This document shows positions 1 to 3,688 of a stretch of DNA of 64,000 bases, one piece after another (within the stretch, counting starts at the first letter, position 1; every line of letters begins with the position of its first letter). The DNA is from Jezberella montanilacus (GTDB lineage: Bacteria; Pseudomonadota; Gammaproteobacteria; Burkholderiales; Burkholderiaceae_B). The notes beneath the pieces were generated by a model, which was not told the origin of the DNA, did no database searches, and saw nothing but the letters and a program-made list of their open reading frames with translations. The stretch covers positions 1 to 64,000 of the forward strand of contig NZ_PVTV01000012.1 of assembly GCF_003003055.1 (NCBI RefSeq), in the 5' to 3' direction. Position numbers and translations under genes: made by a program.

Positions 1-165
1 TCCTTAGGCACCAACTTGCAAGCCACGGTCAACTCGCTCCAAGCCGTCGATCAAACCGCCCTGCAAGCTCAGTTGCAACAGTTAAACAACCAACAATCGG
101 TTGACTACTACCTGGTCTCGCAGATGAACACCGCCGCTCAGGCTGTGCTCACACTCTTCCGTTGA
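1..165 (+). CDS. Flagellin-like protein, C-terminal end only (cut by window edge)
   Basis: Frame 1 is open from the first base to a TGA at 163-165 and gives 54 residues. They match the last 54 residues of the complete gene at 466-1269 at 50 positions; the differences are A/S, V/I, T/S and L/I. The end VLTLFR resembles the VLSLLR-type C-terminus of bacterial flagellins, which forms the D0 coiled coil with the N-terminus. The start lies outside the window. This is therefore the upstream member of a tandem pair. The function of a secreted filament subunit is inferred from family resemblance only. Confidence 0.75.
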   Translation, partial: SLGTNLQATVNSLQAVDQTALQAQLQQLNNQQSVDYYLVSQMNTAAQAVLTLFR

Positions 166-465
166 TCTGAGTAGCGGTTGTTAGTTGAATTGATTTGAAT
201 AATCTTTAATTGAGGAGTTATCGCTCGCACAAACTTAATTATCGAAGGGCTGAGTGGGATCGCATTGCGGTTTTGCTCACGGGTTTTACCATTTTTAAGC
301 TTTGCAGTTGCTATAAAACTAAGCCAACGCGCCAAACATTATCTGGGCTCGGTTGCTGTGGTCTGTGTATCACGCACCGAAGCTTTTTGCAGGGTCGTAT
401 GAGTAAGCAGCCCGCCTACTCATATCGTGTATTTGCACAATCTACAAATTAAAAGGATATTTATC
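166..465. other. Intergenic region between the two flagellin-like genes
   Basis: This 300-base stretch is A+T-richer than its neighbours and carries no convincing coding frame; the short frames here lack ribosome sites. A TATAAA-like box lies near 313-318, and the ribosome site AAAAGGA (451-457) serves the downstream gene. I looked for a sigma-28 site (TAAA-N15-GCCGATAA) and a sigma-54 site and found neither with correct spacing. No hairpin with a T-run follows the upstream gene, so read-through from one copy to the next is possible. Confidence 0.4.
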
Positions 466-1269
466 ATGAGCGCAATCACAGGCTTGTCCTCGCTGCTTGA
501 CCAAAGCGTCAGCTCTGTTCAAGCACAAATCGCCACCACGCAAAACCAGTTGGCAACGGGCATTAAACAAACCAACCCCGCTATCCAGGGTATTGTTACC
601 CGTCTGTCGGCCAACATCAGCCAGTACTCGTCAATCGGCACTAACATCACGGCAGCGCAGAACGTGGTCGCCGTGGGTCAAACCAGCTTGACCACCATCA
701 GCTCACTGATTTCACAGATGCAGCAGCTTGCCACGCAAGCAGCCAGCGGTGGCTTATCAACGACTGACTTGGCCAGCTTGAACACCACCTTCACGGCCCT
801 CGCCAGCCAGATCTCGGCAGCCGTCTCCAACGCCTCGATCAACAGCACAACCGTGCTCTCAACCGGTGGCGGCTTGACTGTCCAGATCGGCTTGACGACT
901 GCGGCAAGCTCAACGGCTGCGTTTGGTACCCTGGGGCTTGATACCTCGGTTGTGTCGGTTGCCACGGCCTTGTCAATCAGCACCGGTACCGCTGCGTCGG
1001 CCTCCATCACGAGCTTGACTGCCTTGCTCACGACTGTCTCAACAGGTCAATCCAACCTGAATGCCTACAGCGTGTCTTTGGCTGCGGATCAAAGCGCCGT
1101 GACTTCGTTGGGTACCAACTTGCAAAGCACGATTAACTCGCTCCAGGCGGTTGATCAAACTGCCCTGCAAGCTCAGCTCCAACAGTTAAACAACCAGCAA
1201 TCGGTTGACTACTACCTCGTATCCCAGATGAACACGGCAGCTCAGGCTGTCTTGTCCATCTTTCGTTAA
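466..1269 (+). CDS. Flagellin-like filament protein, complete copy
   Basis: The product has 267 residues. The ATG at 466 is chosen over an in-frame ATG at 427 because AAAAGGA (451-457) sits nine bases ahead of it. Residues about 1-140 resemble the flagellin N-terminal D0/D1 helices (LATG around 29-32, a long Q/N/S/T-rich amphipathic helix, then LSTGGGLTVQIG). The last 60 residues resemble the C-terminal helix and end in VLSIFR. The variable centre is very short. Composition is striking: only one Lys (34) and two Arg (46 and 267), with no Glu, His, Cys or Trp. There is no cleavable signal peptide, as expected for a type III-exported flagellin. No flagellar genes lie in this window. A non-flagellar surface role is possible. 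Confidence 0.7.
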   Translation: MSAITGLSSLLDQSVSSVQAQIATTQNQLATGIKQTNPAIQGIVTRLSANISQYSSIGTNITAAQNVVAVGQTSLTTISSLISQMQQLATQAASGGLSTTDLASLNTTFTALASQISAAVSNASINSTTVLSTGGGLTVQIGLTTAASSTAAFGTLGLDTSVVSVATALSISTGTAASASITSLTALLTTVSTGQSNLNAYSVSLAADQSAVTSLGTNLQSTINSLQAVDQTALQAQLQQLNNQQSVDYYLVSQMNTAAQAVLSIFR

Positions 1270-1399: not shown

Positions 1400-1422
1400 C
1401 AGTGAAAATCACGAAAGCTTAA

Positions 1423-1704
1423 ATGTCTATCCCAAAAACTGCCATAACAGTTGGTGCTTACTATTCAACGAACAACCACCAATTGAGAAAAATCGTTGAA
1501 ATGCCTGTAGACGCTAAAGGTGTCGTTAGAGTTCGATACATCAAAAAAAGCATATGGCTGACTGGTAAATCGTTCGAATTTGGCGAGGGCGTCCTCTCAA
1601 AACCGATCGTGTTAGACACGTTTGCCAACACCTGCGATAAGGTTCTTGCCGAGACAGACCTTCAGCATTTAAAAGATAAAAATATTCTCCTAGCTGGCGA
1701 ATAA
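1423..1704 (+). CDS. Small conserved-looking protein of unknown function (93 aa)
   Basis: I do not recognise this 93-residue soluble protein. It has no signal peptide, membrane segment or cysteine pair; its single Cys lies in TFANTCDKVL near residue 70. It begins with a beta-rich segment (ITVGAYYS, RKIVEM, VVRVRYI) and ends with helices, which suggests a small folded domain. The ATG at 1423 has no clear Shine-Dalgarno sequence. Codon use and amino-acid composition look natural, unlike the shadow frames nearby. It lies downstream of a terminator and convergent with glmS, so it should have its own promoter. It is lower in G+C than the core genes around it. Confidence 0.5.
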   Translation: MSIPKTAITVGAYYSTNNHQLRKIVEMPVDAKGVVRVRYIKKSIWLTGKSFEFGEGVLSKPIVLDTFANTCDKVLAETDLQHLKDKNILLAGE

Positions 1705-1855
1705 AAACGCTAGCTGGATAAAGTATGTGACAGATACCCTATTGTCTGGCTCAGTAACCTTAGTGCATTGCTTGAGCCATCCGCAATACTACTGAAACAA
1801 TTGCTTTCAACCTGCCGCCTGATTCTCAAATGGCGCCAACAAGCAATGGTTTCGC

Positions 1856-3688
1856 CTACTCCACCGTTACACTCTTAGCCAAATTGCGTGGCTTATCTAC
1901 ATCTGTGCCGCGTGCACATGAAGTGTGGTACGCCAGTAGCTGCAAGGGTACTGTGTGCAAAATTGGGGACAACACCCCATAAAACTCAGGCATACGAATC
2001 ACATGCACCCCCTCACTGCTCGAAATATGCGAATCCGCATCGGCAAACACATACAACTGACCACCCCGTGCACGAACTTCTTGCATATTGGATTTCAGCT
2101 TCTCTAACAACGCATCATTAGGCGCAATCGTCACCACGGGCATCGACTCTGTCACCAGCGCCAGAGGCCCATGCTTCAGCTCACCAGCGGGATAAGCTTC
2201 GGCGTGGATATAGCTGATCTCTTTGAGTTTAAGTGCCCCTTCAAGCGCGATGGGATAGTGCATGCCACGGCCAAGGAATAACGCGTTCTCTTTGGTGGCG
2301 AAGCGCTCGGCCCAGGCAATGATCTGCGGCTCAATGGCCAGCACCGCACTTAAAGCAGCGGGCAGATGCCGCAAGGCTTTCAAGTGTTCAGCTTCTTGCG
2401 CGGGAGTCATATGACCCTTGACCTTGGCCAAGGTCAGCGCCAACAAAAACAAGGCTGTCAGTTGGGTTGTAAAGGCTTTGGTGGATGCCACGCCAATCTC
2501 AACACCTGCGCGAGTCAAGAAGGCCAGCTTGCACTCGCGCACCATCGCACTGGTGCCGACGTTACAGATGGTCAGTGTTTGTTCCATGCCAAGCGAACGC
2601 GCATGTTTCAAGGCCGCCAGCGTATCTGCTGTCTCGCCAGACTGCGAAATTGTAATGACCAAGGTGTCGGGATGAGGCACGCTGTCGCGATAGCGATACT
2701 CACTGGCGATCTCAACTGAAACAGGGATTTTAGCGATCGATTCGATCCAGTATTTGGCGGTCAGACCAGCGTAGTAGCTGGTACCGCAAGCCAAAATTAA
2801 CACCCGATCAATCTGCTTAAACACTGCAGCCGCTTGTTCACCAAATAAACTAGGTGAGATCGACTCAATCCCAGAGATGGTGTCGCCAACTGCGCGAGGT
2901 TGCTCGAAAATCTCTTTCTGCATGTAATGGCGATAAGGCCCGAGCTCAGCCGCACCCGTGTGAACGAGCACCGTATTGACCTTTCTATCTACCTTCACGC
3001 CATTGACATCATAGATATCAATGCGATCGAGATGCAGATCAACCACATCACCTTCTTCAAGGTAAATAATCTGATCTGTCGTGCCCGCTAAAGCGAGGGC
3101 ATCAGACGCCAGAAAATTTTCGCCTTGACCGATGCCAGCAACCAAAGGCGATCCCTGACGGGCACCGACCACTCGATGTGGTTCGTCTTTACAAAAAGCA
3201 GCAATACCGTAAGCGCCATGCAAGCGTGCGACTGTCTGTTGAAATGCCGCTAACAAATCACCCTTGTATAGGTGATTGAGTAAATGGGCAATCACTTCAG
3301 TGTCAGTCTGGCTCACAAATACATAACCAGCTGCTTGCAGCTCGGCGCGCAGCGCCTCATGGTTTTCAATGATACCGTTGTGAACAAGCGCAATGCGTGG
3401 CTCGCCGCCACCGAACGATGAGAAATGCGGATGCGCATTGCCGGTTGTTGGGGCGCCATGTGTTGCCCATCTCGTGTGAGCAATACCAGTGAAACCGCTA
3501 ATCTTGTCCTGTTCGATGACACGATCAAGTTCTGCTACGCGCTCAACACTACGAGCACGCCGCAAGCCTCCATCCTGATAGACCGCGACGCCGCAAGAAT
3601 CGTAACCTCGATACTCGAGACGCTTTAAGCCCTCGACCAAAATTGGGGTAATGTCACGGGTCGAAACAGCGCCTACGATGCCACACAT
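1856..3688 (-). CDS. glmS: Glutamine--fructose-6-phosphate aminotransferase (isomerizing)
   Basis: GlmS converts fructose-6-phosphate and glutamine to glucosamine-6-phosphate, the first step towards UDP-GlcNAc for peptidoglycan and LPS. The 610-residue length is normal. The N-terminal MCGIVGAV places the Ntn nucleophile Cys at position 2 after Met removal. HTRWATHG and the glutaminase domain follow (about 1-240). Two SIS domains (SQSGETADT and the CGTSYY region; about 290-605) end in the family's typical [13 protein letters not shown] tail. GGAGA at about 3697-3701 supports the start. It lies downstream of glmU, the last enzyme of the same pathway, with a glycosyltransferase and a transporter between them. 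There is no self-cleaving glmS ribozyme, as expected outside Gram-positives. Confidence 0.98.

Follow-up and report, generated by a model that had tools for sequence, protein, structure and literature searches.

Does a flagellin-like protein with almost no charged residues build the filament of a bacterial flagellum, and if so, what kind of flagellum would that be? The question is raised by a gene at the left edge of the window, i.e., the whole 64,000-nucleotide stretch of Jezberella montanilacus DNA analysed here, which corresponds to the initial 64 kb of contig C2 in the genome (G000; 3.16 Mb in 19 contigs). The gene starts with ATG at 466 and its stop codon ends at 1269. Translation reproduces the composition given in the initial annotation: 267 residues with one Lys, two Arg and no Glu, His, Cys or Trp. 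Six Asp residues are also present, 3.4% of the whole protein is charged, and Ser, Thr, Gln, Asn, Ala and Gly make up 67% of all residues. The tail of a preceding copy at the contig edge, which shares 50 of 54 residues with the C-terminus of the complete protein, was likewise recovered. The features of this part of the window are:

1..165, plus strand: last 54 codons and stop of a preceding flagellin copy, recognised by translation and by its 50/54 identity to the corresponding part of the complete gene product; the remainder lies beyond the contig start
343..389, plus strand: stem-loop conserved in the leader of flagellin mRNAs (model R1), from model matches and pair counts
390..465, plus strand: rest of the leader, a second hairpin and the Shine-Dalgarno region, predicted from folds to be partly paired
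466..1269, plus strand: charge-poor flagellin of 267 amino acids and D0/D1 length, assigned by Flagellin_N over its cut-off, full-length similarity to solved filament flagellins, and composition

A 93-residue open frame without a Pfam match lies directly 3' of the flagellin gene, at 1423-1704.

A Divergent Clade of Flagellins

By sequence homology, the window protein is a flagellin. A comparison with the two flagellin families of Pfam, proposed in the initial annotation, gave 39.7 bits for Flagellin_N (PF00669; cut-off 26.6), while Flagellin_C (PF00700) matched residues 184-265 at 15.6 bits, below its cut-off of 23 (19.6 bits on the paralogue on contig C1). Residues 11-267 match solved filament flagellins of Caulobacter with phmmer (E 6.4e-10), and a profile built from eight family members matches Caulobacter FljN at E 4.4e-21. 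The best 60 of 76 rows of the profile search are all of flagellin type, including one fusion to FliD, and no other Pfam or NCBIfam family exceeds its cut-off for the window protein. An AlphaFold2 model predicted from two sequences (pLDDT 52.8) contains long helices at residues 3-31, 38-93, 99-132 and 172-266. Flagellins top the Foldseek list obtained with this low-confidence model, but the best match is not significant (E 0.043), and because the model is poor no weight was given to these matches in judging the fold.

The protein is neither FlgL nor a member of the ordinary FliC clade. Its best NCBIfam match is the FlgL/HAP3 model TIGR02550, yet the score of 35.5 bits is far below the cut-off of 127.2 and the values of 256-325 for FlgL of relatives (n = 3), and the tree places it apart from FlgL. 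FliC proteins of the same family and order share the Flagellin_N domain and the helix layout with the window family, but differ from it in charge, in a conserved loop and in the tree. The charge of the D0/D1 parts, measured on the first 150 and last 95 residues joined, is 2.9-11.4% in eight family members (mean 7.1) and 13.1-18.4% in 17 FliC of the order (mean 15.6); thus, the family has on average half of the usual charge. The lowest values are those of the window protein (3.3%) and of the copy on contig C3 (2.9%). The 17 FliC rows comprise one per locus, except for two from L077, and the L076 row lacks nine leading residues. Omission of other flagellin-like frames (L024, L028, L036, L037, L038, L041 and additional ones from L021 and L027) gives the comparison no advantage, their whole-length charge being 13.5-18.7%.

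Flagellins characteristically carry a DD(A/P) loop behind their first helix. DDA or DDP is present in 17/17 FliC and 3/3 FlgL, and in none of ten family rows, which include two charged paralogues. The family rows, ten out of 23 in the tree, group as one clade with support of 100/99, apart from FliC and the three FlgL, although the family sits on a long branch, long branches meet, and four rows are of unlike composition. Membership in the ordinary FliC clade is ruled out by this tree and the missing loop, and FliC is kept as a working analogy. Thus, as judged from sequence comparisons, the window family is a flagellin clade that fails two flagellin marks. This agrees with the divergent flagellin family suggested at the outset, a reading to which Flagellin_N, the separate clade, the family profile and the charge and loop comparison all point.

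Flagellar Gene Context

The window was initially described as lacking nearby flagellar genes. For the window itself this holds: the proteins of at least 90 residues encoded within 20 kb at both flagellar stretches of the genome (on contigs C1 and C6) match only flagellins in the 64 kb (tblastn, E ≤ 1e-4). As an inference it carries little weight, since the window starts where the contig starts and its left neighbour is unassembled.

The stretch on C1 has the order flhB, flhA, flhF, fliA, motA, motB, flgJ to flgB, flgA and flgM, followed by a flagellin gene (fla). On C6, among frames of at least 90 residues, which do not include fliQ, the order is fliT, a fliK-like gene, flhX, fliE to fliR, a FliS-like gene, a charged flagellin paralogue and a flagellin tail. 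FlhA, FlgM, FliT, FliF, FliJ, FliK, FlgE, FlgJ and a rod protein of the FlgE/F/G type were checked with models, and the other names were given by eye. In the congener G009, a 5.3 kb contig carries flgM (identified by Pfam), two fla genes, a charged paralogue, a FliS-like gene, a third fla and a second FliS-like gene. A family member thus stands directly 3' of flgM in both genomes; together with the position beside fli genes on C6, this argues that the family is part of the flagellum. A search for a full flagellar set, another check proposed initially, yielded rod, hook, export and motor genes, with FliD, FlgK and FlgL undetected.

Undetected Adaptor and Cap Proteins

Neither of two models found FliD in this genome, and nothing exceeded the cut-off of the one FlgK model. 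The seven weak FlgK matches (up to E 1) comprise six inside flgB, flgC, flgE and flgG of C1 and one elsewhere (E 0.18). FlgL, sought in this genome alone, was not found either: Flagellin_N picks up only five family genes. The same model scores FlgL of three relatives at 67-94 bits, so that a FlgL in G000 would probably have shown.

Across 61 genomes, FlhA was found in 28, namely in 5/32 of the genus and 23/29 outside it. All 23 FlhA-bearing genomes outside the genus have FlgK over the cut-off, and 22 of them have FliD; within the genus, both counts are 0/32. The exception is G055 of the same order, in which FlhA and FlgK are present and FliD_N has no match. Three genomes of the genus, G000, G001 and G009, encode a flagellar-type FlhA at 879-887 bits, with FliD and FlgK undetected in all three. 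Lower FlhA-family scores were obtained for G004 (C93:95812-97803, 723 bits) and G013 (C577:3-1286, 408 bits, partial), whose genes may encode injectisome export gates.

Canonical flgK, flgL and fliD could still be present, either hidden in assembly gaps or too divergent for the models, and this is considered somewhat unlikely. The assembly does break at flagellin repeats, and FliD was sought with two models and FlgK and FlgL with one each, but the likely sites of these genes are assembled with other genes. Usually, flgK and flgL are located after flgJ; in G000 and G009, the gene after flgJ is motB. The row flaG-fliD-fliS-fliT occurs in 6/6 stretches of related genomes (names assigned by eye, with Pfam confirming two of the FliS), and in L067 and L071 it continues with a fliK-like gene, flhX and fliE. 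The present genome keeps fliT, the fliK-like gene, flhX and fliE without the preceding flaG-fliD-fliS; a response regulator and a kinase lie ahead of fliT on the opposite strand. The listed completeness of G000 is 100, and G001 and G009 agree with it, though they are only 93% and 76% complete, respectively. Since in addition no match to the window flagellin family was found in G001, despite the presence of FlhA, the case for absent adaptors leans mainly on G000. Retention of FliT without a detectable FliD is unexpected and may hint at a substitute client.

A FliS-Like Protein and a Charged Paralogue

Two further genes accompany the family, at the following positions:

L009:18382-18762, minus strand: small helical FliS-like protein, with a FliS-like predicted fold and no FliS sequence match
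L009:18875-19687, minus strand: charged flagellin paralogue, adjoining the FliS-like gene
L047:139-537 and 1609-2007, minus strand: small helical FliS-like proteins, by predicted fold
L047:2129-2935, minus strand: charged flagellin paralogue, adjoining a FliS-like gene
L054:1214-1588: small helical FliS-like protein, by predicted fold

The FliS-like protein adjoins family members on C6, twice in G009, and in L054, with 57-60% identity to the L054 version. It resembles FliS in its predicted fold and in its place beside flagellins, but differs in sequence. PF02561 (FliS), which scores 117 and 101 bits on two ordinary FliS, has no match to two of the FliS-like proteins at E ≤ 0.1 or to that of L054 at E ≤ 0.01, and a profile comparison with six FliS gave no match (hhalign probability 0.6). 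An identity with FliS by sequence was thus rejected, and the fold alone speaks for FliS. The L054 protein was modelled by AlphaFold2 from a single sequence with a pLDDT of 84.9. The top five Foldseek rows for this model are FliS or flagellar chaperones, at non-significant E values of 0.12-0.31. In VIA-align, the top nine rows are FliS or flagellar export chaperones with Z values of 11.0-12.9, followed by 10.2; since helical bundles below about 13 can be common arrangements, the FliS fold is support rather than proof.

The charged paralogues of the two species are 43% identical and differ at their C-terminal end. Their D0/D1 parts are 16.3 and 16.7% charged. Located about where relatives carry fliD, the charged paralogue is a candidate replacement for the cap or junction.

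A Shared Leader of Flagellin mRNAs

A leader of 116-124 bases is common to five flagellin genes: those on C1, C2 and C3 and two of G009. In addition to the window copy, it is located at:

L007:18747-18870: leader copy, shared by flagellin genes
L006:18823-18938: leader copy, shared by flagellin genes
L047:3817-3936 and 1408-1529 (minus strand): leader copies, shared by flagellin genes

The folds have z values of -1.6 to -1.9 for each of the five, weak individually. In the stem of the first part, 94.7% of cells are paired, a value reached by 16/500 shuffles, three pairs are changed on both sides (71/500 shuffles), and the covariation score is reached by 9/500; coming from five sequences, all these values are modest. 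Model R1 has five matches at 61-69 bits among 61 genomes, all of them upstream of flagellins and identical with the five leaders from which the model was built, followed by a next best match of 22.1 bits. Rfam gave only a chance-level snoRNA match on the window leader. Judged by alignment and by the lack of a strong R1 match, the leader appears to be absent ahead of the C9 gene, the charged paralogues and the G009 copy G9a. According to the folds, pairing covers the Shine-Dalgarno region in C1, G9b and G9c, but only about half of it in C2 and less in C3. From these folds, the leader may control flagellin translation, perhaps by hiding the ribosome site.

Copies, Probable Gene Conversion and Selection

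The Flagellin_N search located five full flagellin genes in the genome. Compared with the window protein (C2), the products are 93% (C3), 65% (C1), 42% (C9) and 28% (C6) identical. With the two tails at the edges of C2 and C6, the genes are spread over five contigs. The tails run into different sequence; barring misassembly at the contig edges, the genome therefore has seven or more flagellin genes. Window bases 1-166 recur at the end of C6 with a single difference, and the identity stops one base past the stop codon, a pattern that looks like gene conversion. Between the C2 and C3 copies, 23 of 71 differences lie within a single 60-base bin where the gene begins, and codons 1-25 hold 11/18 amino-acid changes. 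In codons 26-267, dN is 0.013 and dS 0.147 (dN/dS about 0.09). The crowding of changes into the first codons and the low dN beyond them give the appearance of mosaic copies under constraint. Together, the near-identical tails and the C2/C3 mosaic support the recent duplication or gene conversion proposed in the initial annotation.

On the C3 contig, genes of chemotaxis type as well as transposase-like and regulator-like genes are found near the flagellin (L007:5928-20000), and the contig end resembles an insertion element by eye.

The copies in the window, on C3 and on C9 sit away from flagellar structural genes. They could accordingly be secreted, flagellin-like proteins that form no filament, comparable to Campylobacter FlaC, with only the cluster copies building the filament; an excerpt of PMC8306008 describes FlaC as a flagellin homologue without a central domain that is dispensable for a functional flagellum. 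This reading is unlikely, as the leader of the window and C3 genes is also present on the C1 copy after flgM and on two cluster copies of G009, the C2 tail is nearly identical to the C6 tail beside fli genes, and the C-terminal arm is well kept across the family, as seen in invariant alignment columns.

PMC8527033 describes FlgK, FlgL and FliD as essential for forming the filament in Salmonella, and a genome without them might thus form no filament. The flagellum could then be degenerating, its adaptor and cap genes lost and its flagellins left over, as the presence of FlhA in just 5/32 and of FliD in 0/32 genomes of the genus would suggest. Such decay is improbable, however, given that the flagellins have multiplied, that no internal stops were found in their genes, and that purifying selection acts on them, with a dN/dS of about 0.09 for C2/C3 and about 0.05 for G9b/G9c, a pair in which dS is close to saturation.

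Distribution and Known Systems

The family is rare. Matches above 47 bits are confined to G000 and G009 among the 61 genomes. Among 399 genomes of the order, with at most six candidates scored per genome, only G000 exceeds 81 bits and seven match at E ≤ 1e-20; the six other matches score 75-81 bits, contain the DD loop and were rejected as ordinary flagellins. A pattern scan of species genomes retrieved one further member, L054 ('uncultured beta proteobacterium').

Caulobacter FljK, FljL and FljN (PDB 6xl0, 9cem and 9cef) resemble the family in length, in a layout consisting of D0/D1 only and in full-length similarity. Like the present genome, Caulobacter has several flagellins per cell, given as six in an excerpt of PMC8306008, in which up to seven per cell are mentioned as known. 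FliD is undetected in Caulobacter too, but unlike this genome it has FlgK by the same model. Among the matches listed from the open-licence literature, there was no report of flagellins without FlgK, FlgL and FliD (titles and abstract starts), nor of charge-poor flagellins.

A Probable Remodelled Flagellum

The window gene probably encodes one of the filament subunits of a bacterial flagellum that has been remodelled but still works. The filament itself would form as follows. The flagellin mRNA is predicted to start with a structured leader that possibly hides the ribosome site. The flagellin would be exported by the flagellar secretion machine with the help of the FliS-fold chaperone, and would polymerise as a core-only (D0/D1) filament from several paralogues encoded at dispersed loci, while gene conversion, to judge by the identity pattern, would keep the copies alike. 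The charged paralogue beside the FliS-like gene may stand in for the undetected FlgK, FlgL and FliD. A surface coat or adhesin protein without a role in motility, a reading suggested initially and in keeping with the unusual composition (67% Ser, Thr, Gln, Asn, Ala and Gly), is barely credible, as no evidence was found for it and the full-length flagellin similarity, the flagellar-cluster context and the lack of any other family over its cut-off stand against it.

More tentatively, a flagellated betaproteobacterial lineage can be envisaged in which the entire filament module has been exchanged: its flagellins are poor in charge and devoid of the DD loop, FlgK, FlgL and FliD are absent, the chaperone has the FliS fold without detectable sequence similarity to FliS, a flagellin paralogue serves as cap or junction in the place of fliD, and a new RNA leader controls the translation of flagellin. 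Flagella of this lineage may therefore be assembled by a route that has yet to be described. If so, a natural flagellum without FlgK, FlgL and FliD would show other routes of filament start and growth and would provide a direct test of the purpose of cap and junction, while a nearly uncharged filament would bear on how the contacts between its subunits are made.
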